From Arcicella sp. (GTDB taxonomy: Bacteria > Bacteroidota > Bacteroidia > Cytophagales > Spirosomataceae): a stretch of 49,636 nt of DNA. Both the position numbers and the translations under genes were made by a program. Shown piece after piece: positions 9,319 to 24,578 of this stretch (the stretch's first letter is position 1; each line of letters starts with the position of its first letter). Location of the stretch: positions 1 to 49,636 of the forward strand of contig JANXML010000110.1 in NCBI GenBank assembly GCA_025354645.1, read 5' to 3'. The notes beneath the pieces were generated by a model, which did not search any database, had not been told where the DNA came from, and saw nothing but the letters and a program-made list of their open reading frames with translations.

Positions 9319-9432
9319 TTTATAGACTGCGACATAACTTCTTAGAATAAAATTTAAAGTAATGGTGTTCAGATTTGACAAATTTCAAAAAGTCAAATCT
9401 ATATTCCAATAAGTTATGTCGTAGTCTATAAA
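9319..9432. repeat. MITE-like or regulatory inverted repeat with nested hairpin
   Basis: TTTATAGACTGCGACATAACTT (9319-9340) / AAGTTATGTCGTAGTCTATAAA (9411-9432), 21/22 complementary; nested AGATTTGAC (9371-9379) / GTCAAATCT (9392-9400). Confidence 0.7.
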
Positions 9433-9443
9433 AAGAGTAAATT

Positions 9444-10727
9444 CTATTTTTTTGAAATACAAAAACAAGCATTTGCATCAATTACATCCACATCTCCAAT
9501 GTCTCCTTTTGGAGCAAAATTATAAATTGGAGGATTGTAATCAATAAATAAATCCGTTGAAGACGCTCCTGCTAATGTATTGCCAGTATATTTTATTCCT
9601 TGCAAACCGTACACTCTTCCTGTGGTTACACCTTTTGCCTCTAAATAATTACCACTATTCCAAATAAAATCATCACAGTCTTTTACACCGCCTTTTTCGT
9701 CACTTTTGTAGGAGAAATCTACGCCACCAGCCGAATTTTTACCCGTAAAACCACCCACAAAATATTGGGTATTTGAAACCCATGCAGTGCCAATTTTATT
9801 ATAGCTATATGACATGGCATTGTGAGGATCTCCTCTTTCAGCTAATATTACCTTTTTTGTATCACCTGAAAATTCTATATCTGTTATCGTATTCATTGCC
9901 CCTGGTAAATTTGGAATTTCCAAGGTTGGAACCGCCGAAGGAGGTAAACTGCCGTCCGTATTTAGGGTAATTGAATATAAATTTCGATTTGAAGCGGTGG
10001 TGGTAGGTGTTGTAATTCTCGCAAAGTACAATTTCACTTTTCCCTTTTCATAATTCACACCAATTCCCCAAATTTGTTCATCTTGAGTTGTGATATCGGG
10101 TGTTGGCGTGTCTATCGTCCAAGGGTCATAAGTGTCTAAAATTGCACCAGCCATCGAAATTCGATAAATTTTACCATTGTCTAAATTGGTTGCAAAAATC
10201 TGTTTATTTACTTTATCATAAGCAATGTTTCCAATGCCATTTAAACTGCCAGTGCTACCCGTCGGATATGTTATTCCAGGTAAATCTACCAAAGTACTAA
10301 TTGCATAGGTAGGTGAAGATGCTTTAAATATCCTTCCAGGAGTGGCATTTTTATAAAGAGGATTGTAACCATTTTGACCGTAAATTCCCGAAGAAGCCAA
10401 ATAAATATTTGAATTGTCATCTGTGGCAATTCCAAAAACTCTTCCTAAATTTTTGAGCGTCCAATCGGCAGGATTTTTCACATATCCAGCAGAAATTAAT
10501 GAAGGAGCCCAATCGGTTCCAACAGGGGCTGAGGCGTTGTTTCTTGTATCATAAATACCTCCCACAAAATCACTACTAATGTCGGCATTATAGGTAACCA
10601 CTGTTAAACCACTTTGCGTACTATTTTCTCCAAATTGTTCACATTCAGGAGAATACACGCACGTTTCTTCTTTGCTACAAGCTATCAAAATGATAATAAC
10701 TGTGAGCGTTGATAATATTCGTTTCAT
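9444..10727 (-). CDS. Putative lipoprotein, beta-propeller-like
   Basis: Lipobox 'LTVIIILIAC'; repeated 'GIATDDNSNIYLASS', 'NGIGNIAYDKVNKQIFATNLDNGKIYRI' blade-like motifs. Confidence 0.65.
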   Translation of the reverse strand: MKRILSTLTVIIILIACSKEETCVYSPECEQFGENSTQSGLTVVTYNADISSDFVGGIYDTRNNASAPVGTDWAPSLISAGYVKNPADWTLKNLGRVFGIATDDNSNIYLASSGIYGQNGYNPLYKNATPGRIFKASSPTYAISTLVDLPGITYPTGSTGSLNGIGNIAYDKVNKQIFATNLDNGKIYRISMAGAILDTYDPWTIDTPTPDITTQDEQIWGIGVNYEKGKVKLYFARITTPTTTASNRNLYSITLNTDGSLPPSAVPTLEIPNLPGAMNTITDIEFSGDTKKVILAERGDPHNAMSYSYNKIGTAWVSNTQYFVGGFTGKNSAGGVDFSYKSDEKGGVKDCDDFIWNSGNYLEAKGVTTGRVYGLQGIKYTGNTLAGASSTDLFIDYNPPIYNFAPKGDIGDVDVIDANACFCISKK

Positions 10728-10743
10728 TTTTTTTATGTTTTAT

Positions 10744-10777
10744 AAATGGGCATATTCTCGTAATAATATGCCCATTT
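10744..10777. repeat. Intergenic 12-bp perfect inverted repeat
   Basis: AAATGGGCATAT (10744-10755) / ATATGCCCATTT (10766-10777), 10-nt loop, between two minus-strand genes. Confidence 0.7.
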
Positions 10778-10792
10778 GAGATATGTATTTCT

Positions 10793-12553
10793 TTATTTTT
10801 CAGGACAAATAACTTTCATTTCCGTTCTGCGATTAATACTATGTTGGGCTTCTGTGCAATTTACCCCATCAGCACATTCGTTCAGTAAAACCGTTTCTCC
10901 GTAACCTTTACCCGTAATTCTATTTCTGTCAATACCCTGCGATACAATGTAATTAACCGAAGCATTTGCCCTATTTTGCGAAAGCGTTTTGTTGTAATCA
11001 TTACTCGAACGGCAGTCCGTATGAGAACCTACTTCCACTTGTACTTTTGGATTAGTTTTCATAAAAACAACCAAACGGTTCAATTCAACTTTGGCTATTT
11101 CTTTGATTTCATATTTATCTAAATCAAACAAAATATTTTTCAAACCCAAGGCTTTTCCACATTCAAACTTTTCTGCACACATTTCTAATTTTACAAATAG
11201 ATTTTTATCACGGTTATAATCGTTGGCAGAAACCTTTTCTATTTGGGAGAAATATTTTTCCATTCTTCCGTATAAATCATATTCCCCTTTTTCGGGCAAT
11301 TGAAGTAAGAAATTTCCTTGAGCATCAGTCACGGTTGATTTTTTAACGGCTAAATCTTTATTTTCCAAAACCACATTTATACCAGCAATGGGTGTGGTAG
11401 TATTACACTCAAAGGCACGACCTTTTATGATGAAGTTTCTATCGCCGTATATAATCTCTTTTGAAATAACGCCACTATTATTCATACAATTTTGAAATTC
11501 ACTTTCAGATAGACTTACTTCTTCCAAATTCGTAGCGTTTAAACTCCCTTTGATGATATAATTTTTTGGTGAAACTTGTTCAAACACAACCACGCCAAAA
11601 CTATTTGTTTTGCCCGTATTCACAATTTGCCCTGCTCCATTTACTAAAACAACATCTGTTTCTGGCAGTATCTCTTTGGTGTATTTATCCCTTGCGGTTA
11701 TGCTCAATTTGCAACCACATACATTGCAAACAGCCTTTACTTGCTCGACTATTTTTGTTTTGCTTTTTTGGGGGAATCTAAAAACAATACCCGCATAGAC
11801 TCCCACAGAACTGATATTACAGTTACATGGGTCCTTTCTTATCATTGGATTCAAATCAACTATATTACCTGATTCTTTTGCAGTTTGGTTATAATATCCA
11901 GAGGCGATGCCAGTGGTTGAATTTACTGATTCAGGGACTTCAAAATGATTGATATGATAAACACCCAAATTCACCCCAAAAGCCTTAGTGAAAAAATAGT
12001 TGAACTGTATTGATGCTTTTGAGGATATTACATTTTTTGCATCGTATCCAGCATGAAAATTCAAATCAATAGGACTTGGTGTTGGAGAAGTTGGGATTTG
12101 ACCTTGTAATAAAGTATAGCCACCTTTGATATTTGATATACCACCCCTCAAATTTAATTCTAAACTCCATTTATCATTTCTCAAATACCTAAAACTGGGT
12201 CCAATACCTGCAAAAGTTCGAGTGATATGATTTTCTTGAAGATTTAGCGTATTTATGGAAAATCCAGAATAAATCAAATTGCTTGTTGAATACTTACTTT
12301 GGGGATTATTTTCTAAAAAATCACCATCTATTCCCATGCCCAACCAATTGTTAAAATAGTAATTTGCCGTTATTCCAGCCATCCAATTTCCTTTATAGTC
12401 AATGAATGGAGTGTTGTTTTGATACATAGGTTTTACATCAAAACCCCCTTTTAGGGATAGTTGTAAGCCTTTATTGTTGTTCAAAACCGTTTGAGCGTTG
12501 ATACCAATACTCACGAAGAGCATCAACATTTTTAATAATATTATTTTTTTCAT
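10793..12553 (-). CDS. OmpA-family outer-membrane protein with N-terminal beta-barrel and carboxypeptidase-regulatory-like domains
   Basis: C-terminal 'VQVEVGSHTDCRSSNDYNKTLSQNRANASVNYIVSQGIDRNRITGKGYGE' OmpA motif; 'IIKGRAFECNTTTPIAGINVVLENKD...TDAQGNFLLQLP' CarboxypepD_reg-like. Confidence 0.9.
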   Translation of the reverse strand: MKKIILLKMLMLFVSIGINAQTVLNNNKGLQLSLKGGFDVKPMYQNNTPFIDYKGNWMAGITANYYFNNWLGMGIDGDFLENNPQSKYSTSNLIYSGFSINTLNLQENHITRTFAGIGPSFRYLRNDKWSLELNLRGGISNIKGGYTLLQGQIPTSPTPSPIDLNFHAGYDAKNVISSKASIQFNYFFTKAFGVNLGVYHINHFEVPESVNSTTGIASGYYNQTAKESGNIVDLNPMIRKDPCNCNISSVGVYAGIVFRFPQKSKTKIVEQVKAVCNVCGCKLSITARDKYTKEILPETDVVLVNGAGQIVNTGKTNSFGVVVFEQVSPKNYIIKGSLNATNLEEVSLSESEFQNCMNNSGVISKEIIYGDRNFIIKGRAFECNTTTPIAGINVVLENKDLAVKKSTVTDAQGNFLLQLPEKGEYDLYGRMEKYFSQIEKVSANDYNRDKNLFVKLEMCAEKFECGKALGLKNILFDLDKYEIKEIAKVELNRLVVFMKTNPKVQVEVGSHTDCRSSNDYNKTLSQNRANASVNYIVSQGIDRNRITGKGYGETVLLNECADGVNCTEAQHSINRRTEMKVICPEK

Positions 12554-12571
12554 GATTGATATTTTTTTAAA

Positions 12572-13516
12572 TTATTTCAACAAGGTTACGTGTGCTACAT
12601 AATCCGCTTTCTTCCCAGTCTTTGCTTTTTTAATATCAAAAGTTGCAGTATGATTGGGCGTAAGGGTTTCCTCATTTGTTATCCATAAATAATTGCCATT
12701 ATTTTCTGTTACAAAAATCAAATAGCACTGTAAGCCAACTGGGTATTTTCCACCCAATGTACCCAATGCGTTAGGGGCATTTTTCGGAAGCACAAGCACT
12801 TGGCTTACTTTATCAAAGCCTACTGGTACTTTGGCAGTTATGAGCGTTTTTGGTTCTGGATAACCATAAAATCTATCAACATTAAACCATCCAAAATTGG
12901 GTACAATAAACTTGTAAGTGTTTGCTCTGGTGTCCGTAAAAACAACCGTAGCGGTTTGTTCCCAACCTAAATTATTATCGTATAATTGCCCTTTAAAAAG
13001 TCTCATACCTTCAAGCATTCCTCCCGTGTTGCTCGCAGAGGTAGTTATCTCAATGGGTTTTGTTAACGTTAGGTTTTGTCCCGTTAGCGATACTATATTT
13101 ACATAAAACTCCCCGCCAGACTGCATAATTTCCCACTCTTTATTTGGCAATAGTCCCATGGTTGGTTTATTAGTTACACTCATTTTGGCTTTGTCGTAAA
13201 TTTCGACTAATTCCAATATGACCGATCCTGTGACAGCAGCGCCATTTAAAGTCAAACTATTGGGTTGCACAGTCACGGTTGTCCCTCTTTCAGAAGTATA
13301 AGTAAAACTTTGAGTGGAGATAAAGTGAGCAAACTTTTTTTCGCCAATTGTGGCATCTTCAAATAGAGCATTTAATTTATCAATTGAAGATGGTTGGGGT
13401 TCATTTGTAATGGTAACTTCATTGTCAGTACATCCCCAAACGATGCTTGAGATTATGATCATCTGGAAACTTTTCTTCTGAAAAAAAAGTAAGATTTTCG
13501 GTAATAACTTTTTCAT
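12572..13516 (-). CDS. Putative lipoprotein of unknown function
   Basis: Lipobox-like 'IISSIVWGC'; immediately upstream of the OmpA gene, co-oriented. Confidence 0.65.
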   Translation of the reverse strand: MKKLLPKILLFFQKKSFQMIIISSIVWGCTDNEVTITNEPQPSSIDKLNALFEDATIGEKKFAHFISTQSFTYTSERGTTVTVQPNSLTLNGAAVTGSVILELVEIYDKAKMSVTNKPTMGLLPNKEWEIMQSGGEFYVNIVSLTGQNLTLTKPIEITTSASNTGGMLEGMRLFKGQLYDNNLGWEQTATVVFTDTRANTYKFIVPNFGWFNVDRFYGYPEPKTLITAKVPVGFDKVSQVLVLPKNAPNALGTLGGKYPVGLQCYLIFVTENNGNYLWITNEETLTPNHTATFDIKKAKTGKKADYVAHVTLLK

Positions 13517-13591
13517 GTTTTTAAAATATTGATTTTTAACACCTACATCCTTTTAGCCGATTCGGTTTTTTGCTTAGCGGTTTGACTCTAC

Positions 13592-13637
13592 AAAATTGGG
13601 TGAATTACACAAGGCAAAAAATACCCAATTTAGGTGA
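13592..13637. promoter_or_regulatory. Operator-like inverted repeat upstream of the lipoprotein/OmpA operon
   Basis: AAATTGGGT (13593-13601) / ACCCAATTT (13623-13631). TACCCAATTTAGGTGA (13622-13637) matches TACCCAATATTGGTGA at 17293-17308 in 14/16 positions. Confidence 0.45.
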
Positions 13638-13680
13638 GTACAAACCAAGCAAACAGAAGTGATTAGAGAGGGAAAGGCAC

Positions 13681-13730
13681 AAAAAAAACAGGCATAACGA
13701 GCCGATTTATAGCTCATTATGCCTGTTTTG
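13681..13730 (-). terminator. Rho-independent terminator of the 13745-18406 gene cluster (minus strand)
   Basis: AAAACAGGCATAACGAGC...GCTCATTATGCCTGTTTT, preceded on the plus strand by an A-tract (U-tract on the minus-strand RNA). Confidence 0.75.
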
Positions 13731-13744
13731 AAAGATGATTTATA

Positions 13745-14407
13745 CTATGCTTCTTTCACTTTATTACGAATAATATAGAAACCATAAGCCACCATGAGAT
13801 TGGTGATAACGATAAAAAGAGGAGAAGATAAATACCAACAAAGTTGCATGAAATCAGTAGAGTAGGCTGAAAGTTTTTCCATAAGAGTTGAAATCAAAAT
13901 AGAAAAAAGATTCATGATAAGTAGAGCTGAAATTATCCAAATGAGCGAGCGTTTGTAAGTACTACTTTTATAGGTAAGCACTATTTTACGAAGCATAAGA
14001 ATTGAAACAATAATAACGAATATTGTTTCAGCACTTGACATATAACTACTTATAAGATTCTTTGTAGTAAGAAAATCATTAATCATTAAACAAATAAAAA
14101 TTATGCAAAGTAAAGCCAAAACCCATTTAAGTTCTTTACCTAAATCAAAAATTGATATAGTAAGCAAAGAAACTAAAATAATATCAAGACAAGGACTTAG
14201 GTGATATAAAAGTTGCTGGCTATGCTCAATATTAGAAAAATAAAAAGCAATCCAGCTAATTATAAATGCTCTAATAACGTTATAAGTGGCTATTTTTAAA
14301 GGAAAATTAAAAAACTTCCATCTAAAAATAGCCACTATTACAGGTATTATTGCTGTTCCGATACTAATATTATATGCCCATTCTATAATAGAAAAATACT
14401 TTTCCAT
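13745..14407 (-). CDS. Multi-spanning (about 6-7 TM) integral membrane protein of unknown function
   Basis: 220 aa made almost wholly of hydrophobic segments separated by short charged loops. Confidence 0.75.
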   Translation of the reverse strand: MEKYFSIIEWAYNISIGTAIIPVIVAIFRWKFFNFPLKIATYNVIRAFIISWIAFYFSNIEHSQQLLYHLSPCLDIILVSLLTISIFDLGKELKWVLALLCIIFICLMINDFLTTKNLISSYMSSAETIFVIIVSILMLRKIVLTYKSSTYKRSLIWIISALLIMNLFSILISTLMEKLSAYSTDFMQLCWYLSSPLFIVITNLMVAYGFYIIRNKVKEA

Positions 14408-14457
14408 TTAATTTTGTAGTTTTAGACCACAATATAGAAAGAAAAAATAAATTTATA

Positions 14458-14844
14458 TTAAGCAGTCGGAGGTTTAGGTTTTATCATTGGTAATACTCCA
14501 TCAGGTCCACCATCACCAGCGGTTGCTGTTGTGGCATATTTAGGAAGTTTATTCATGATTTGTGGCTCATCATCTTTTGATATGCCAGAAGCAGATTCAA
14601 TCACTAATTGCAATTGCCCGCTCTTTTTAATGGCTTTGTTCATTCCAAAACTCACTACAATCCCTGCCGCATCTTCGTTTTCGAGGAGCATTTTGACAAG
14701 GAGGGTTTTTCCGATAAAATAACCCTGTGTCACCAAGGAATTTGGGTCTGTTATTTCTTCCTTAAAAATTGTTTTTAACTGTAAGGCAGTTTTTGCATCT
14801 ACCTTTTTTAAGCCCTGTTGGCTCAATCTGTGCGTGTTTTTCAT
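14458..14844 (-). CDS. Small conserved-looking soluble protein of unknown function
   Basis: 128 aa, no signal peptide; compact middle part 'YFIGKTLLVKMLLENEDAAGIVVSFGMNKAIKKSGQLQLVIES' and Pro/Gly-rich C-terminus 'DGGPDGVLPMIKPKPPTA'. Confidence 0.6.
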   Translation of the reverse strand: MKNTHRLSQQGLKKVDAKTALQLKTIFKEEITDPNSLVTQGYFIGKTLLVKMLLENEDAAGIVVSFGMNKAIKKSGQLQLVIESASGISKDDEPQIMNKLPKYATTATAGDGGPDGVLPMIKPKPPTA

Positions 14845-14876
14845 GAAATTGTGATTTTATGGTAAAAATTGGGAAA

Positions 14877-16574
14877 TTAATAAATTGAGAGTTTTAGGTT
14901 CAATAATTCTTTGAAATTTGCAGGCAAAGGTGGCGTTGGAACATAATTTAAAACTCTTATTATTTCAATTATTGTTAGCCTTCTTCTGATTCCAGTGGTC
15001 TGATTTTCTGCCATGCTTTGAAAATTCGCTACCAAAGCTGCTGTAATAGCACTTGCTAAGGAGGTACTATTGAAAGGTTTGTCGTTCGTTGCGGTAATCA
15101 TTGCGGAGGTAAGAACATCATCGCCAAAACAACGGTAATCTAATCTATTGCCACTGTTTAATTTTGGTTGAAAATTCCTATCAAAAGCACCTACCATAAT
15201 GGCACCTGTCCCGTTGGTCTTATTCGTTATATCTTTCAACGTTGAAAAAGGACTTGAAAAATTAAGGTTGAGATTATTATTACCATTCCCAGCCGCTTCA
15301 ATAATGATATATTTTGCACTTATTCCTTTATTAATTACATTCCACATGGCAGGTTCAATTTCTACTGGAAAAAGTGAACTTGCGACGTAATTTGGTAGCG
15401 GATTTTTTGGAGTAGGAACTGGAACTGGATAAATTTTATAAGTAACTGTAACTTGTAATTCTAATAGCACGATATCGTATAAATTAAGGGTTTTTACCAT
15501 GCTTCCTGAAATCGCCTCAGTTGTTTGATTATAACCATACCCCAATACTGAAGCCAGAGCTGCCTCTCTAAATTCACCTTTTGGATAATGCGTAGAAGCC
15601 ACTTGAACATCTGCCCCCATACATAATCCATTTAAGGTAGCTGCACTATCGATGGGATTCTCTTTTCCTAAAAGTACATTTAAGGTCTTTTGTCCATGCA
15701 TAAAATCACCATTGTTTACCCCACCACCTAAAATTGGTCTTGCAGTAGAAGGTGGAAAACCAGCGTATTGAATAGGTGTATCAAAATTCCAACCTTGCTC
15801 CACATCTATTACTTTAATGGTAGGTTTTGAAGATGAAGTAGAAGTCAAATTTGTTCCTACAACAATGCCGAAAGTGTTAAGTATCGTATGAATAGGTTTG
15901 ACATTCGCCAACGGTGGCGGTGGATCAAAAGTGCCAACTCGACTTAAAGGATCAGATTGTGGAACTGATGCGGAATTAGAAGACTTCATATTCATAGCCA
16001 ATGGCTCTGGTTGAAATTTACTTGCAAAAGATTTTGGTCGATTATTTGCTACTTGTGTAGGCACATCATTTGGAATTGATGCCCCTCCAGAACCTTGAAA
16101 AGCACTTTGTTCCTCAAAATTGGCAAGTGTCCCTCTCAAATAAAAATAATCAATTCCTAAATTTGGAAAACTTATTTTTAACTTATTCAAATCCTCCAGC
16201 TTTTGCATTTCATTGGCTGAATTAACTTCAATGAAATAATAATTCAATAAATTTTCACCAATATTATTGCTTCTATCATTTGCCATTTGCATCAGATTGA
16301 CAACATTCGTATTATCTTCCACAGAAAAAAGACTTTCAATTTTTCCATTCACATCCATCGGTGCGATTTGTGCAACCAGATTTGAAAAAACAAATTTACT
16401 CTCACTAATATTGCCAGCGTTTTTAAGAATAGGATAAAGTTCATTAACTCTTCCAAAGTTAAAATCGAGGAAAAATTTATCATTAATTACAATCTTTCCT
16501 GGATTATTAGTTACCGTTTCCTGTTGCAAAAAAAAAGCATCTTTAATTTTGAATACAATTTTTGAGATGGGCAT
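14877..16574 (-). CDS. S8 subtilase-like protein without signal peptide
   Basis: Candidate triad in order: Asp 'IKVIDVEQGW', His 'GDFMHGQKTLNVLLG', oxyanion Asn 'IIIEAAGNGNNN', Ser 'NSTSLASAITAALVA'. N-terminus 'MPISKIVFKIKDAFFLQQE' is not a signal peptide. Confidence 0.7.
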   Translation of the reverse strand: MPISKIVFKIKDAFFLQQETVTNNPGKIVINDKFFLDFNFGRVNELYPILKNAGNISESKFVFSNLVAQIAPMDVNGKIESLFSVEDNTNVVNLMQMANDRSNNIGENLLNYYFIEVNSANEMQKLEDLNKLKISFPNLGIDYFYLRGTLANFEEQSAFQGSGGASIPNDVPTQVANNRPKSFASKFQPEPLAMNMKSSNSASVPQSDPLSRVGTFDPPPPLANVKPIHTILNTFGIVVGTNLTSTSSSKPTIKVIDVEQGWNFDTPIQYAGFPPSTARPILGGGVNNGDFMHGQKTLNVLLGKENPIDSAATLNGLCMGADVQVASTHYPKGEFREAALASVLGYGYNQTTEAISGSMVKTLNLYDIVLLELQVTVTYKIYPVPVPTPKNPLPNYVASSLFPVEIEPAMWNVINKGISAKYIIIEAAGNGNNNLNLNFSSPFSTLKDITNKTNGTGAIMVGAFDRNFQPKLNSGNRLDYRCFGDDVLTSAMITATNDKPFNSTSLASAITAALVANFQSMAENQTTGIRRRLTIIEIIRVLNYVPTPPLPANFKELLNLKLSIY

Positions 16575-16586
16575 AACTTTATTTGT

Positions 16587-17222
16587 TTAAACCAATTTCC
16601 ACTCCAAAGCCTTCACAACGGCTTCCGAAGCAGAATTAACGTGGAGTTTTTCGTAAATATTTTTTACGTGCGTATGCACTGTATTGAAACTAATATCGCA
16701 AGCATCGGCAATCATTTTGTAGCTCATGCCCTTGGTCATGCAACCCAAAATTTCTTTTTCTCGATTCGTGAGGGCAACAAAAGTCTGGTGTGCCGTGGCA
16801 TTTTGACTTTGAAACATTGCCAAAACTCTTGCCGCAATATTGGGCGAAAGCGAAGAACCCGAAGCAAAAACATCTTTTATGGCTTGCACATATACCTCTG
16901 GGTCGGGGCTTTTAACGATATAACCATTCGCCCCAGCACATATCGCTTGAAAGATTCTTTCATCGTCTTCATAGATGGTCTGAATCAGTATTTTGGTATC
17001 TGGATACAGTTTTTTTATGTCGAGTGTTGCCTCCAATCCACTCACGTGAGGCATTTGAATATCCATCAAAACCACGTCAGGTTTGTGCTTTTTGATAGCC
17101 CAGAGGGCATTTCGGGCATCACCAAAAGCTCCTGCCATCATAAAATCCTCGCTACTTCCCAAATACATGGCAAGGCTATCTCGCAGGTTTTTATTATCTT
17201 CAAATATCACGACCCGAATCAT
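16587..17222 (-). CDS. NarL/LuxR-family response regulator
   Basis: Receiver 'VVIFEDN..LRDSL...DVVLMDIQMPHVSGLEA...K'; HTH 'LTNREKEILGCMTKGMSYKMIADACDISFNTVHTHVKNIYEKLHV'. MIRVVIFEDN at 17222 preferred over the ORF-track start at 17387. Confidence 0.93.
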   Translation of the reverse strand: MIRVVIFEDNKNLRDSLAMYLGSSEDFMMAGAFGDARNALWAIKKHKPDVVLMDIQMPHVSGLEATLDIKKLYPDTKILIQTIYEDDERIFQAICAGANGYIVKSPDPEVYVQAIKDVFASGSSLSPNIAARVLAMFQSQNATAHQTFVALTNREKEILGCMTKGMSYKMIADACDISFNTVHTHVKNIYEKLHVNSASEAVVKALEWKLV

Positions 17223-17292
17223 AAGATTTCTAATTAAGAATGTAAACATCACTTTTTTACACAAATTTATCGGGAGATTTATCCTTAAAAAA

Positions 17293-17308
17293 TACCCAAT
17301 ATTGGTGA
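17293..17308. promoter_or_regulatory. Palindromic operator-like site between HK and RR genes
   Basis: TACCCAATATTGGTGA with CCAATATTGG core, 71 bp upstream of the RR start; near-copy at 13622-13637. Confidence 0.4.
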
Positions 17309-18406
17309 CTAAACATCTATGGTTATACTCAACAAGATGCTCGACCCTTTCCCAATTTCTGAATCTATTTTTATTTTCATGTCGCATTCTTCGGCACGTT
17401 GTTCAAAATTTTGCAAACCATTTCCTTCAAAGTTTTCATTGGTGTCAAATCCGATTCCATTGTCTTCAATTTGCAAAAAAACTTGGTTTCCTTCGCTCCA
17501 AATTTTCACATTTGTTTTGCTTGCTTGGGCGTGTTTCACGATGTTGTTGATACTCTCCTTAAAAATCAGATAGGCATTTTTGCGTTGCTCCATTGACAAT
17601 AGATTTTTATTACTAATTATCTGATTATCAAAGGTTAACGAAATATTTTTTGCTCCCAAAATTTGTGTAGCAAAGCCTTTCATTTTCAGCATAAACTTCT
17701 GAAAATCATCGTTTTTTGCTTGAATTGCCCAAATAGTATCTTGCATCAACTGAACAGATTCCTTTGAGTTTGAGGTGATTCTATCTAAAATTGGATTTAA
17801 TTCTTTGGGGGATTTTTTACGTAATAATTCAACAAAAATGGCAATTGAGTTTAAGTTTGAACCCACTTCATCGTGCAAATCTGCCGCAATTCGATTTCTA
17901 ATTTCTTCTACTTTTATTTTTTGTCTGAGGTTATAAATGGATAAGAAATATGCTCCAATACCTATCAAAGTCAAAACATAAAAAACCATTGAAGGCATAA
18001 ACCACCATTCTTGCCAAAAAACTTGGCTTACATTAATTGGTAAGCTAAAAAATACTTTATTGCTTGTTCCTTTCGTACTGATTTCTAAGGAATATTTACC
18101 ACCATCTAAGGTTGGGATTTGTACAATCGGCTCTGTGCCAAGTTCATGCCATTGAGCAAATTTATCGGCTTGGGGAATTCGATATTGATAGGTATATGAT
18201 TGATTGTCAGAGTTTTGTAGTTGAATAGTGACAATTTCATTATATTTTAGATTCAAACTGTTTGTCTCCAAAATCCTTTGAATGGAGTCTTTTTTAAAAT
18301 CGCCTTTCTGCAAATGCCATACATCAGCCAATCGAAGATTTTGGGCTGATAAGTCGTAGCAAAAAATGAAAAATATGATAAAAAAATTAGCAGTTTTAAA
18401 AACCAT
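17309..18406 (-). CDS. Sensor histidine kinase (Y_Y_Y-like domain + TM + HisKA_3 + HATPase)
   Basis: 'RNRIAADLHDEVGSNLNSIAIFVELL' (HisKA_3), 'NAYLIFKESINNIVKHAQAS', 'DNGIGFD..NFEGNGLQNFEQRAEE' (HATPase); periplasmic 'YTYQYRIPQADKFAQWHELG'. Confidence 0.92.
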   Translation of the reverse strand: MVFKTANFFIIFFIFCYDLSAQNLRLADVWHLQKGDFKKDSIQRILETNSLNLKYNEIVTIQLQNSDNQSYTYQYRIPQADKFAQWHELGTEPIVQIPTLDGGKYSLEISTKGTSNKVFFSLPINVSQVFWQEWWFMPSMVFYVLTLIGIGAYFLSIYNLRQKIKVEEIRNRIAADLHDEVGSNLNSIAIFVELLRKKSPKELNPILDRITSNSKESVQLMQDTIWAIQAKNDDFQKFMLKMKGFATQILGAKNISLTFDNQIISNKNLLSMEQRKNAYLIFKESINNIVKHAQASKTNVKIWSEGNQVFLQIEDNGIGFDTNENFEGNGLQNFEQRAEECDMKIKIDSEIGKGSSILLSITIDV

Positions 18407-19197: not shown

Positions 19198-19785
19198 TTG
19201 ATGGCACACATGAACGATACTCAACTTTGGAAAAACTTTCAAGAGGGGGATGAATCTGCCTATACCGAGATTTATCGCACTCATGTGAAAGCTATGTATC
19301 GTTATGGTATGAGCCTTGTTCCTGCATCTGAAGCTTTTGTTTTTGATTGTATTCATGATGTTTTTACGGAAATTTGGGTGAAGAGAACTCGGCTTACTGT
19401 GCCTGATAATGTGCGATATTACTTACTTAAATGTTTGAAAGTGAGAGTTTTACATTTACTACAACGTAAAGAAAGAACTAATCAACCACTCGACCAAATA
19501 GATTTTGATGAACTTTGGGCTGAACCTTCCTATGAAGATATTTTTACTTTCGGAGAAGAAAAACAAAATCGAGAAGATTTAGTAAAAAAACTCATGAGTC
19601 AATTGCCCCCACGCCAGCAAGAAGTTCTCAGACTTCGATTTGTTGAAGAATTAGACTACAAAGAAATTGCCCAAATCCTTTCCGTAAACCCGCAATCTGC
19701 CCAAAATTTAGTTTTTCGAGCCATTGAAAAACTTCGTACATGGCTAATTCCTTGTATTTTACTATTTTTTAAAGAAATAATTTAA
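19198..19785 (+). CDS. ECF-type RNA polymerase sigma factor
   Basis: 'EGDESAYTEIYRTHVKAMYRYG', 'LPPRQQEVLRLRFVEELDYKEIAQILSVNPQSAQNLVFRAIEKLR'. Confidence 0.93.
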   Translation: MMAHMNDTQLWKNFQEGDESAYTEIYRTHVKAMYRYGMSLVPASEAFVFDCIHDVFTEIWVKRTRLTVPDNVRYYLLKCLKVRVLHLLQRKERTNQPLDQIDFDELWAEPSYEDIFTFGEEKQNREDLVKKLMSQLPPRQQEVLRLRFVEELDYKEIAQILSVNPQSAQNLVFRAIEKLRTWLIPCILLFFKEII

Positions 19786-19841
19786 AATAAGTGAGTATAT
19801 AAATAAGGTAACGGTCATCTACGGACAAAAACCTTATTTCC

Positions 19842-20942
19842 GTGCAGAAAAATTTCCAACAATATTCTATAATCGACTTCGTAGGAGATGATGATTTCTT
19901 GAAACATCACCTCCATCCTACGTCAGAATCTTCTCAATTTTGGGAAGATTGGCAGTTGCAAAATCCATCTAAAAAATCAGTGTTTCTGGAAGCTCAAAGG
20001 CTTTTTGAAGCGGTTCGTTTGGGTTTGAGCGAGTACGCACGAACTTACCTTTCACCCGAAGCTGAAGCCAACTTATTAGCTCGAATTCGATTGACCAATG
20101 AATCAAATAATTTATTTGAGAAGCCAATTGTGTCTATTTGGAGGAATAAATGGACAGTTAGTGTGGCAGCGGCATCGGTGCTTTTATTGTTAGGCGTGTT
20201 TTTCTGGAAGTTACAAACTGACCCTGTATCGCCATATTACCAGCAAATCGCTTTATTGAACAAATCGGTAATTGAAAAAAATAACGTTGATTTCAAACCC
20301 CAACTAATTCATCTTTTAGATGGTACAGCCGTGCTACTTTCTGCCAAAAGTAGGCTAAGTTATTCTGAAAATTTTGGGTCAGAAAATAGAATAGTTTACT
20401 TAGATGGTGAAGCCACTTTTGATGTTGCAAAAGACCCATCCAAACCATTTTATGTGTATGCTAATGAATTGATTACCAAAGTTTTAGGCACAAAATTTAA
20501 GATTACGGCTTATGAAAAAGGGAAGGATGTGGTTGTAACCGTTCAGCATGGTCAGGTGAGTGTTTATCGGAATGAAAAATCTGAAAAAAATTCGCTCAAA
20601 GGAGTTTTATTACTCCCCAATCAGCAAGTTGTTTTTGCTCGACAATCAGAACAATTTAATAAAACAATCATTCGTGAACCTCAAATTGTGGCTTTGAATA
20701 ATAAGGAAATTATCAATTTTGATTTTGATGAAACACCCGTTTATGAAGTATTTGAAAGACTTAAAAAGGCGTATAATATTGACATAATTTATAACAGCGA
20801 GATTTTAAAAGATTGTCAATTAACGGCTTCACTTACGGATGAATCGCTTTTTCAGAAGTTAGATATCATCACAAAATCTATCGGAGCGAGTTATGAAACG
20901 GTTGAAGGTCAGATAGTTATAACTTCAAAAGGATGTAAATAA
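19842..20942 (+). CDS. FecR-like anti-sigma factor (GTG start)
   Basis: Single TM 'WTVSVAAASVLLLLGVFFW'; FecR motifs 'LLDGTAVLLSAKSRLSYSENFGSENRIVYLDGEATFDVAKDPSKPFYVYANELITKVLGTKFKI'. Confidence 0.93.
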   Translation: MQKNFQQYSIIDFVGDDDFLKHHLHPTSESSQFWEDWQLQNPSKKSVFLEAQRLFEAVRLGLSEYARTYLSPEAEANLLARIRLTNESNNLFEKPIVSIWRNKWTVSVAAASVLLLLGVFFWKLQTDPVSPYYQQIALLNKSVIEKNNVDFKPQLIHLLDGTAVLLSAKSRLSYSENFGSENRIVYLDGEATFDVAKDPSKPFYVYANELITKVLGTKFKITAYEKGKDVVVTVQHGQVSVYRNEKSEKNSLKGVLLLPNQQVVFARQSEQFNKTIIREPQIVALNNKEIINFDFDETPVYEVFERLKKAYNIDIIYNSEILKDCQLTASLTDESLFQKLDIITKSIGASYETVEGQIVITSKGCK

Positions 20943-20966
20943 ATCTTGCTAATTAATCCATAAGAA

Positions 20967-20997
20967 AAGCCAACGGTTTTCGAAGAACCATTGGCTT
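20967..20997 (+). terminator. Hairpin between FecR-like gene and SusC (terminator or attenuator candidate)
   Basis: AAGCCAACGGTT / AACCATTGGCTT, 11/12 complementary, 7-nt loop, no U-tract. Confidence 0.45.
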
Positions 20998-21083
20998 GAA
21001 ATTTCCAAAATGCCGTCAAGCAATCCCCGTAAGGGTTAAGGAAACATTGTGTCCAAATTTTTAAAATTTAAACAATCAAAAGT

Positions 21084-24000
21084 ATGAAAAAATTTAACCA
21101 TTTAATTATCCAATGTATGAAAATTTCGTTGGTTCAACTTTTCATTGCCTGCTTGTTCATGAGTGTTTCGTGGGCAAATGATGCAAATGCACAGGAAATA
21201 CTAAATCGACGACTTAGTATTCAGGTATCTGATATGAAGATAAAAAATGTGCTTGCGACAATTGAAAAATCTACAAATGTAAAGTTTTCATATAGTCCAC
21301 AAGTAATTCAATCGAGTCGGAAAGTAACGATTAATATGGACGATATTACGTTGGGAGCAATTTTGAGCAAGATTTTAACCCCGCTGCAAATCGGTTATAA
21401 TGTTGTGGGAAATCAAATTATTTTGAACACCATAAGTAAACAAGATGAACCAACGCCATCATCCATTAAAAATAATAGTGTAATAATCCCAAAAGTAGAA
21501 AACATTGAATTGAATATTAAAGGCAAAATTACGAGTACGGAAAGCGGAGAAGTTATTGCTGGCGTTAATATCAACATCAAAGGCACACAAAGAGGTACTT
21601 CGTCCAATTCAAAGGGAGAATATTCAATTACTGTTCCAGATAAAAATACGGTTTTGGTTTTCAGTTTTGTAGGGTATTCTTCCAGAGAAATTGCTGTGGG
21701 TGACAGGAGTATCATTAACGTTACGTTGGCAGAAGAAAATAAAGCATTGAGTGAAGTAGTGGTGGTGGGTTATGGAACGCAAAATAAACGAGAGCTTTCA
21801 ACCTCAATTGTGTCTTTGGATGCCAAAAGTATTGCAGAACAAACCGTGACAAATGCCACACAAGCAATGGCTGGACAATTGGCTGGCGTGTCGGTGCAAT
21901 CCGTCACGGGTAGCCCTGGAACTGCTCCAATCATCCGTATCAGAGGTGTTGGGTCGTTGAGTGCGGGTAATGACCCACTGATTGTTGTAGATGGTTTCCC
22001 GTTGAGTAGTACCGAAAATTTTGACCAAATTAGTCCAAATGATATTGAAAAAATTGAGGTTTTGAAAGATGCCGCTGCCGCTGCAATCTATGGTTCGAGG
22101 GGAGGAAATGGGGTAATTATGGTTACAACAAAAAGAGGAAAAGTTGGACAAACCAGATTTAATTTTTCGGTAACGACTGGCATTGATGAATTAGCTCGAA
22201 AAATTCCTGTTTTGAATTCAGCCCAATACGTTGAATACGCAAAGGAGGCATTTGCTTTAAATAAAGCGGCAATTGTTCCCTCATATTTTGACGACCCAAG
22301 TAAATGGGCTAATACCGATTGGCAAGATGTTATTTTCAGAACAGCTCAAAACAGGAGTTATCAAATGTCGGTTTCTGGGGGAACAGAAAAATTGAAATAT
22401 GCTATATCGGGTGGGTATGTAAAGCAAGAAGGGATTCTGAAAGGAACTGATTATGAACGATTTAATTTTCGGGTAAACATGGATTTGCAACTTTCTTTTA
22501 AATTAAAAATGGGAATAAACGTTGCTCCAAATTATAATTATAGAAATGACCGCCCCGTGAATGGTGAAAATTCCACAGGCAATTATTATGTGGGTGTTCC
22601 AGGGCAGAGTGTGGGTTCATTAGGCTCTGTTTATACGGCTTTGGTGCAAGTTCCCATCATGCCTGTATTTTTAGAAAATGGCGACTATGACATTCCCAGA
22701 AACGATCCTTATTTGAAAAATACTTCCGTAAATCAGAATTTTTTCAATCCTTTGGCATATTTAGAATTACAGAATGACAACACACAATCGGTTAGATTGC
22801 AGGGAAATACGTTTTTACAATACGAAATTATAAAAGGCTTATCTTTCAAAATAAACGTAGGAGCGGAAACGACCAATAATCGAAGAAATACCTTTGTTCC
22901 TTCCACTTTGGCTTATAATAATTCAACAAATGCTTCTTTTTCAACGCCTAATTTGAGGGGAATTACGTCTTCGCAAGGTTCAAATCAAAACTATAATTGG
23001 CTTTGGGAAAACACCTTAAATTATGACAAAAAAGTAGGCGAAAAACATCATTTTGCTTTATTGGCTGGTTATTCAGCTCAAAAAAATACGTCCGAAAACA
23101 GCGGAGTTGCCAGTAGGGCGGGTTCATTTGCCACCGATGCTATTCCCTATGTAAGTTTATCAAGTGATATTTTTGGAACGGCTTTTAAAAGTGCTAATAC
23201 CCTTATTTCTACATTTTTTAGGTTGAATTATAATTATGGACAGAAATATTTACTTTCTGCCGCCATCCGAAGAGACGGTTCTTCAAGATTTGGGGCAGAT
23301 AATCGTTACGCTACTTTTCCGTCTGCCTCCGTTGCTTGGCGATTAAGTGAAGAAGGTTTTATGAAAGACGTTTCAGCTTTTAGTGAACTCAAAATTAGAG
23401 GAAGTTATGGCGTAACTGGAAATAATAATATTGGCGATTTCTCTTCGGTGGCAGTCTTGGGAGGCGACCATTACACCTTCGGGGCAGGCACAGGAACGGC
23501 TGAATATGGCTATGCACCCACAGGTTTCACGAACTCGGGTTTGACTTGGGAAACCAATACACAAAAGGATTTAGGATTGGAAGTTGGGTTGTTGAAAAAT
23601 AGAATTTACCTGTCTGTGGATGTGTATGAGCGTATTACGGAAGGCTTACTCGCTCGAACACCTATTTCTTCATTGGCTGGGCTTGCCAGTTCTTATCTCA
23701 GAAATATCGGAAATATTCGTAATCGAGGTTTAGAAATCGACTTGGTTACTCGCAACTTAACGGGTGATTTTAAGTGGACAACCAATGCCAATTTCTCAAC
23801 TAATAAAAATGTTTTGACTGATTATTATAAAGAAGGAGCAGATTATTATGATGCGGTTTTTGGGTGGAATACGGTTTATCAAATTCAAAAAGGAGGCTCA
23901 TTAGGGGATATTTGGGGTTATGTAGCCGATGGAATTTTCATGAATCAAGGAGAGGTGGATAAAGGTCCGAGGTGGCAAGGAAACGCTTCTTCGCCAGGTG

Positions 24001-24578
24001 ATGTGCGTTACAAAGATTTGAACGGCGATGGTAAAATCACAGCCGATGACCGTGCTGTTTTTGCGAATGCTTTACCCAAATTTACCTACGGAATTACCAA
24101 TACTTTTTCCTATAAAGGCTTCGATTTGCGAGTATTATTACAAGGCGTTCAAGGTTCAAATATTGTCTATGGCGTTGGGCGAAATACAGATGCAGGTTTA
24201 GGAGGCGGAAACAATGCTACAACCGCAGTTTTGGGTCGTTGGAAATCTGAATCTCAACCTGGGGACGGTGTTACACCGAGGGTATTGAACGCTGGAAATA
24301 GTGCAGATTTTTCAAGTCGTTTTGTGTATGATGGTTCGTTTATCAGAATAAGAAATGTGTCTTTGGGATATAATCTTCCGAAAGTATTAATCAGTAAATT
24401 AAAACTCCAAAATGCTCGAATTTACGTCACAGGGCAGAATTTATATACTTTTACTAATTATTTTGGGTATAATCCAGAGGTGAATATTGAGTTGGGAAGT
24501 TCATTAAGATACGGTGTTGATCAAGGAAGTTATCCTTTGCCAAGAAGCTATTCTTTGGGCTTAAATATTGGTTTTTAA
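21084..24578 (+). CDS. SusC/RagA-family TonB-dependent receptor with N-terminal STN domain
   Basis: STN-like N-terminus, carboxypeptidase-regulatory 'KGKITSTESGEVIAGVNINIKGTQRGTSSNSKGEYSI', plug 'EVVVVGYGTQNKRELSTSI', 'PLIVVDGFPL', 'IEKIEVLKDAAAAAIYGSRGGNGVIMVTTKRGK'. Confidence 0.97.
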   Translation: MKKFNHLIIQCMKISLVQLFIACLFMSVSWANDANAQEILNRRLSIQVSDMKIKNVLATIEKSTNVKFSYSPQVIQSSRKVTINMDDITLGAILSKILTPLQIGYNVVGNQIILNTISKQDEPTPSSIKNNSVIIPKVENIELNIKGKITSTESGEVIAGVNINIKGTQRGTSSNSKGEYSITVPDKNTVLVFSFVGYSSREIAVGDRSIINVTLAEENKALSEVVVVGYGTQNKRELSTSIVSLDAKSIAEQTVTNATQAMAGQLAGVSVQSVTGSPGTAPIIRIRGVGSLSAGNDPLIVVDGFPLSSTENFDQISPNDIEKIEVLKDAAAAAIYGSRGGNGVIMVTTKRGKVGQTRFNFSVTTGIDELARKIPVLNSAQYVEYAKEAFALNKAAIVPSYFDDPSKWANTDWQDVIFRTAQNRSYQMSVSGGTEKLKYAISGGYVKQEGILKGTDYERFNFRVNMDLQLSFKLKMGINVAPNYNYRNDRPVNGENSTGNYYVGVPGQSVGSLGSVYTALVQVPIMPVFLENGDYDIPRNDPYLKNTSVNQNFFNPLAYLELQNDNTQSVRLQGNTFLQYEIIKGLSFKINVGAETTNNRRNTFVPSTLAYNNSTNASFSTPNLRGITSSQGSNQNYNWLWENTLNYDKKVGEKHHFALLAGYSAQKNTSENSGVASRAGSFATDAIPYVSLSSDIFGTAFKSANTLISTFFRLNYNYGQKYLLSAAIRRDGSSRFGADNRYATFPSASVAWRLSEEGFMKDVSAFSELKIRGSYGVTGNNNIGDFSSVAVLGGDHYTFGAGTGTAEYGYAPTGFTNSGLTWETNTQKDLGLEVGLLKNRIYLSVDVYERITEGLLARTPISSLAGLASSYLRNIGNIRNRGLEIDLVTRNLTGDFKWTTNANFSTNKNVLTDYYKEGADYYDAVFGWNTVYQIQKGGSLGDIWGYVADGIFMNQGEVDKGPRWQGNASSPGDVRYKDLNGDGKITADDRAVFANALPKFTYGITNTFSYKGFDLRVLLQGVQGSNIVYGVGRNTDAGLGGGNNATTAVLGRWKSESQPGDGVTPRVLNAGNSADFSSRFVYDGSFIRIRNVSLGYNLPKVLISKLKLQNARIYVTGQNLYTFTNYFGYNPEVNIELGSSLRYGVDQGSYPLPRSYSLGLNIGF

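Follow-up and report, generated by a model that had tools for sequence, protein, structure and literature searches.

A possible co-diversifying sensory cassette with a leaderless subtilase on a conserved two-component core in Arcicella

The window, that is, the whole stretch of 49,636 nucleotides from Arcicella sp. analysed here, carries five tightly spaced genes on the minus strand. In the order of transcription they encode a histidine kinase (HK; 17309-18406, 365 aa) with Pfam HisKA_3 and HATPase_c domains; a NarL/LuxR-type response regulator (RR; 16587-17222, 211 aa) with Response_reg and GerE domains, whose reading frame offers an alternative start nine codons upstream; a leaderless, divergent S8 subtilase (14877-16574, 565 aa), in which a region of ~200 aa precedes the catalytic domain; a small soluble protein (14458-14844, 128 aa); and a transmembrane (TM) protein with six to seven TM segments (13745-14407, 220 aa). 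The last two are members of phylum-wide families. The gaps between the ORFs measure 86 (HK-RR), 12 (RR-S8), 32 (S8-small) and 50 bp (small-TM), and the cluster ends in an intrinsic terminator, a 19-pair stem with a T tail (13685-13729, minus strand), which is also conserved in G005, another genome of the genus. The preliminary description of this DNA had pointed to the tight spacing, the strong terminator, the HK and NarL-type RR motifs, the lack of a signal peptide on the subtilase and the nearly all-membrane nature of the 220-aa protein, and all of these are borne out, the last two by hydropathy. The same method gives the HK a signal-like N-terminus, ~110 residues outside and one TM segment, and finds no hydrophobic leader in either the subtilase or the small protein. 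Within the HK gene, a hypervariable sensor half (aa 1-165; 17912-18406) is joined to a conserved kinase core (17309-17911). The subtilase, the small protein and the TM protein have no significant match in Pfam or NCBIfam, and a search across the region for RNA families returned none. Beside the cluster, on the plus strand, sigma-factor-like, FecR-like and SusC-like genes (19198-24578) apparently form a separate, ordinary unit.

The candidate catalytic residues of the subtilase, earlier seen to lie in the expected order, are D257, H293, N430 and S505. They are invariant among 27 aligned sequences (the window protein and 26 relatives), as are two further acidic residues, E259 and E426. By sequence, the single protein has no match in the PDB; its profile matches subtilisins (E 7.7e-25), and one module relative (L020) clears the Pfam cut-off, whereas the window protein alone does not. 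An AF2 model (pTM 0.73, mean pLDDT 64) is aligned by Foldseek with subtilisins, including intracellular ones, at a probability of 1.00 and an rmsd of 7-9 A. Sequence and fold together thus make the protein a predicted S8 peptidase. Like the intracellular subtilisins (ISP), it is leaderless and has a predicted subtilisin fold, the best fold matches including 7y6m, 2x8j and 2wv7, and no leader was seen at the S8 starts of its closest module relatives. Unlike ISP, to whose structures it is ~14-16% identical, it carries a D-x-E and E-A-A-G-N signature, the ~200-aa N-terminal region and a linkage to a two-component system (TCS). An S8 profile scan of the genome collection detected relatives in many phyla, with the module present at only one of 80 loci, the G005 contig. 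At two loci, L021 (8308-10612) and L022 (8907-11203), an S8 of the same subfamily stands in a different context with no TCS, and its C-terminal domain recurs in an adjacent 84-aa protein (GVQFTG...WYTFNWP...WHVIW).

In G005, the identical five genes occur in identical order between different flanking genes (the contig is Cytophagales MAG record JAAFJP010000019.1). Other genera of the family have this gene set in a changed arrangement, in which S8 either diverges from small-TM-HK-RR or precedes it. The proposal that the five genes make up a conserved unit therefore stands, as the set recurs in other genera beyond chance. Profile searches of 201 family genomes matched S8 in 32 and TM in 99, and S8 adjoins a TM module in 11 genomes from six genera (G000, G005, G015, G023, G113, G123, G257, G248, G059, G224 and G038). 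The RR comes from one clade in 10 of these 11 modules, and all ten S8-linked RRs tested sit in one starred branch of 16 RRs. Presence is patchy even within the genus (two of eight genomes). After G005, the window RR is most closely related to the RR of a second module carried by the window's own genome (G000:C325, locus L125). There (9385-14011), the order is HK, RR, a C39-type cysteine peptidase, a 150-aa protein and a TM-family protein; the peptidase, which has a signal-like start, stands in for S8, and the 150-aa protein has a Gly/Pro tail. Two further loci, L196 (G005:C6, 8387-13393) and L093 (G038:C20, 8471-13074), combine S8, a soluble protein, a multi-TM protein and HK with a different, LytTR-like or distant, RR.

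The small and TM proteins represent two families that neither Pfam nor NCBIfam lists, and their distribution is much wider than that of the protease. A small-protein profile matched 23 of 300 Bacteroidota genomes, and none of the plasmids searched. Window-type and phylum-type proteins are homologous in both families (hhalign probability 96.7%, E 4.6e-10 for the small proteins; 98.9%, E 3.7e-17 for the TM proteins). Among 48 small-protein loci, of which part were picked via TM or S8 and the phylum-wide ones via the small protein alone, a TM gene is a neighbour in 47, an HK gene in 45 and an RR gene in 41, some of the loci that lack a partner lying near contig ends. The possibility that the two families are scattered over random loci is thus dismissed, because HK and RR adjoin them almost everywhere. 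Small, TM, HK and RR genes are the core across Bacteroidota, where the phylum-wide loci mostly lack a protease, and the protease is an addition. The family core of the small protein reads GY[FY]IGKxxL...GIxIxxG. A C-terminal Cys pair, typically within a final CPPxC, is present in 36 of the 48 proteins, and the window protein has a Cys-less DG/Pro tail instead; six have a hydrophobic N-terminal segment, lipobox-like in two of them. An AF2 model of the small protein from two sequences reached a pLDDT of only 41 and was discarded. A role as a dedicated S8 inhibitor was set aside because the family mostly occurs without any S8 neighbour.

Several modules vary this layout. At L017 (8612-9523), L094 (8770-9666), L096 (9822-10649), L098 (10063-10899) and L114 (8227-9063), proteins of 275-303 aa with weak profile scores occupy the small-protein position and appear to be tandem duplications of the small domain. 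At L194 (G169:C39, 8027-11173), four or more TM-family paralogues stand in a row behind a single small gene. At L124 (G005:C1, 7582-12625), a gene for a 658-aa calcineurin-like phosphoesterase, perhaps another kind of attached enzyme, lies upstream of the small gene of a small-TM-HK-RR module.

In the common module, the HK is minimal, with one TM segment and no sensor domain, and a single genome can carry several modules. This S8-less core would work most like LiaFSR, in which an accessory membrane protein is likewise combined with a minimal HisKA_3 kinase and a NarL-type RR (PMC3543457, PMC7191749). It is different from LiaFSR in having an additional small-protein family, a protease in one clade and, in the window, an HK with an outside domain; no Pfam match above noise to a LiaF-type domain was obtained for the TM protein. 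The minimal kinase and the multiplicity of modules would fit an ordinary multi-component environmental sensor, with the small and TM proteins accessory to the kinase as LiaF is to LiaS and S8 loosely attached. Such a reading, which is very unlikely, has to contend with the recurrence of the S8 linkage in six genera.

The most distinctive property of the S8-linked modules is the unequal divergence of their parts. Between the window and G005, amino-acid identity is 98.6% for RR, 83% for HK, 72% for TM, 57% for the small protein and 40% for S8, and dN/dS is 0.01, 0.10, 0.16, 0.31 and 0.24, respectively, with synonymous sites of S8 near saturation; ilvC, taken as a comparison gene, is 96% identical. 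Among ten modules of the S8-linked clade, most identities lie at 20-35% for S8, the small protein, TM and the HK sensor half, at 49-87% for the kinase core and at 61-99% for RR. For example, in G257 and G224 the RRs are 95% and the kinase cores 78% identical, compared with 23% for the HK sensor half, 23% for TM, 25% for the small protein and 30% for S8, where shuffled sequences give a background of about 23%. This extreme contrast is absent from S8-less modules, in which, at an RR identity of 90-100%, the small proteins are 68-95% and the TM proteins 40-99% identical. It also persists at a chromosomal position shared by several genera, where the flanks are mostly 55-94% identical and the sensory parts are near background; the flanking genes, labelled from their sequences and not by family search, are a GH16-type gene, esterase-like genes, a 234-aa hydrolase and a second kinase. 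At this position, S8 is absent from G239 and G224. That the divergence merely marks relaxed constraint or old paralogy, rather than specificity, likewise appears very improbable: old paralogy of the whole module does not suit RRs that are 95-99% identical beside S8s of 30-40%, and S8-less modules are far more alike at similar RR identity.

The variable parts appear to diversify and move jointly, independently of the kinase core and RR. In alignment scores of the ten modules, G023-G123 and G257-G248 are, besides window/G005, the top pairs in all four sensory parts. The kinase-RR partners are different ones, as the kinase core and RR of G257 pair with those of G224 (0.81 and 0.97). Relatedness switches within the HK gene, between the sensor half and the kinase core. 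Mantel correlations over the ten modules are high for kinase core and RR (rho 0.90), intermediate for S8 and TM (0.47, p 0.004) and not significant for S8 and RR (0.14). Since the sensory-part matrices other than S8-TM and small-TM are weakly correlated, the case for a block depends chiefly on the top pairs that the parts have in common, and block exchange is visible in two pairs only, in a sample of one genome per species. In the window, the variable block is non-contiguous, with RR lying between HK and S8.

These patterns bear directly on the direction of signalling. The protease, the small protein and the TM protein had been proposed as the output or a feedback arm of the TCS, with the small protein as a substrate or inhibitor. 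Apparent co-transcription, the short RR-S8 gap and a terminator shared by the window and G005 speak for such an arm. Nonetheless, most of the phylum has the small and TM genes beside HK without any S8, S8 is often divergently transcribed in other genera, and its divergence and inheritance follow the small protein, TM and the HK sensor half, not RR relationships; an output enzyme would have no need to co-vary with the sensor half of a kinase. The output proposal is thus not upheld and seems unlikely. As constant companions of HK in S8-less modules, the small and TM proteins are probably core parts on the input side. The protease, which shares its top pairs with the sensory parts and not with the kinase-RR pair, most likely belongs to the signal or input side as well, as do ComQ and ComX in comQXPA. 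Taken together, the chances are about even that the locus is an input-side, co-diversifying sensory cassette on a conserved kinase core and RR; a true secreted signal takes up roughly half of that likelihood.

Very fast divergence of S8, the small protein and TM beside a fixed signalling end could also arise from conflict, if a foreign protein or phage factor were detected via the protease and the small protein. Such an arms-race sensor would be expected to be patchy, as the module is in the genus, and might swap its peptidase type, as with the C39 enzyme of L125. However, S8, the small protein, TM and HK do not match PADLOC defence models, the PADLOC matches of RR seem to reflect general similarity of receiver and HTH domains, no sign of a mobile element or defence island was noticed nearby, and the module has housekeeping flanks and a syntenic position in several genera. 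This explanation is therefore a doubtful one.

Among known systems, an input-side cassette would have its closest counterparts in bacterial communication. In comQXPA, conservation declines from ComA through ComP and ComQ to ComX; the N-terminus of ComP is variable, and ComX is a 52-73-aa precursor whose C-terminus is its most variable part (PMC4008528). The window cassette resembles it in having a HisKA_3-type kinase with a variable N-terminus, a conserved Response_reg and GerE regulator, a linked processing enzyme and small protein, variable signal-side genes and a similar order of conservation. Unlike comQXPA, a system of Firmicutes, it has so far been found only in Bacteroidota, has a subtilase where comQXPA has an isoprenyl transferase, and includes a separate multi-TM protein and a small protein of 128 aa that looks folded and has a conserved tail. 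No Pfam match to a ComQ-type isoprenyl transferase or ComX precursor was found, S8 and an unrelated small family being present instead, and for lack of ComQ and ComX genes the locus is not a comQXPA member. The small-protein tail GGPDGxxxMIKPxPP is conserved between the window and G005, the reverse of the variable C-terminus of ComX. Together with the missing export signals, this tail speaks against a simple peptide pheromone.

The agr system pairs a membrane peptidase (AgrB) and a short peptide (AgrD) with a LytTR regulator (AgrA), and its signal, processing and sensor parts are variable and its RR conserved. The window cassette differs from agr in these components but shows the same division between a conserved RR and variable parts for signal, processing and sensing, and its divergence pattern resembles that of strain-specific communication systems. 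No established communication system of such a kind, based on a protein or peptide, is known to us in Bacteroidota. A search of papers, in which coverage of subscription journals was thin, yielded no description of the five-gene unit; it thus appears undescribed, in agreement with the earlier statement that the gene set has no characterised precedent. The analysis defines the two protein families and a signalling module found across Bacteroidota, and the matched hypervariable input block beside a nearly fixed output block may serve as a genomic signature of a specific, possibly self-made signal.

It is reasonable to picture such a cassette as follows, on the basis of computed conservation, linkage, co-variation and operator copies, together with a presumed ligand, protease substrate, export step and DNA binding. 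The conserved half, kinase core and NarL-type RR, would be driven by a hypervariable half consisting of the cytoplasmic subtilase, the small protein, the 6-TM protein and the outside sensor domain of HK. That the cytoplasmic protease and the soluble small protein co-vary with an outside domain suggests a molecule produced in the cell and sensed at its exterior. The subtilase would process the small protein, or check its state, to yield a self-made signal, which the TM protein might export or receive; TM and the HK sensor domain would read it with an allele-specific fit; and the kinase core would phosphorylate RR, which could then act on two operator-like sites, one between the HK and RR genes and the other in front of the operon that follows. 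In its fullest form, this would amount to pherotype-like self-recognition by a protein-derived signal, with maturation by a cytoplasmic subtilase, a matched 6-TM/kinase sensor and cassette exchange between species on a conserved kinase core and regulator, a version that is put forward only tentatively.

The first operator-like element, TCACCAATATTGGGTATTTTT (17288-17308, minus strand), fills part of the HK-RR gap, and a second copy, TCACCTAAATTGGGTATTTTT (13617-13637, minus strand), lies between the terminator and the next operon, within a conserved noncoding leader (13517-13684, minus strand) that is nearly identical in G005. The first gene of that operon (12572-13516, minus strand) encodes a 314-aa lipoprotein-like protein without a Pfam match, a putative RR target. 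In the 5.36-Mb genome, the sequence TCACCNANATTGGGKATTTTY has just two exact matches, at these two places, and mismatched copies are about as frequent as a reversed control permits; therefore, no wider regulon is claimed. A shorter motif, ATTGGGTATTTTT, was also considered, and its 75 near-matches in the genome compared with 46 for the reversed control leave no readable regulon; only the longer element is specific. A structured RNA in the leader (13500-13640) was rejected at a z-score of 0.04. Both elements are kept in G005, allowing one G/T and one C/T change, and the second one is embedded there in noncoding sequence, most of which matches the window as far as the ATG, where an unrelated gene begins. 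RR would probably control the operon that encodes it and an adjacent, replaceable operon, and the latter, behind the second element, would be a likelier TCS output than the protease. In the window (13480-13745) and at L016 (10770-11030), a near-identical terminator and promoter-like leader precede two unrelated genes, as if cargo had been swapped behind one promoter.
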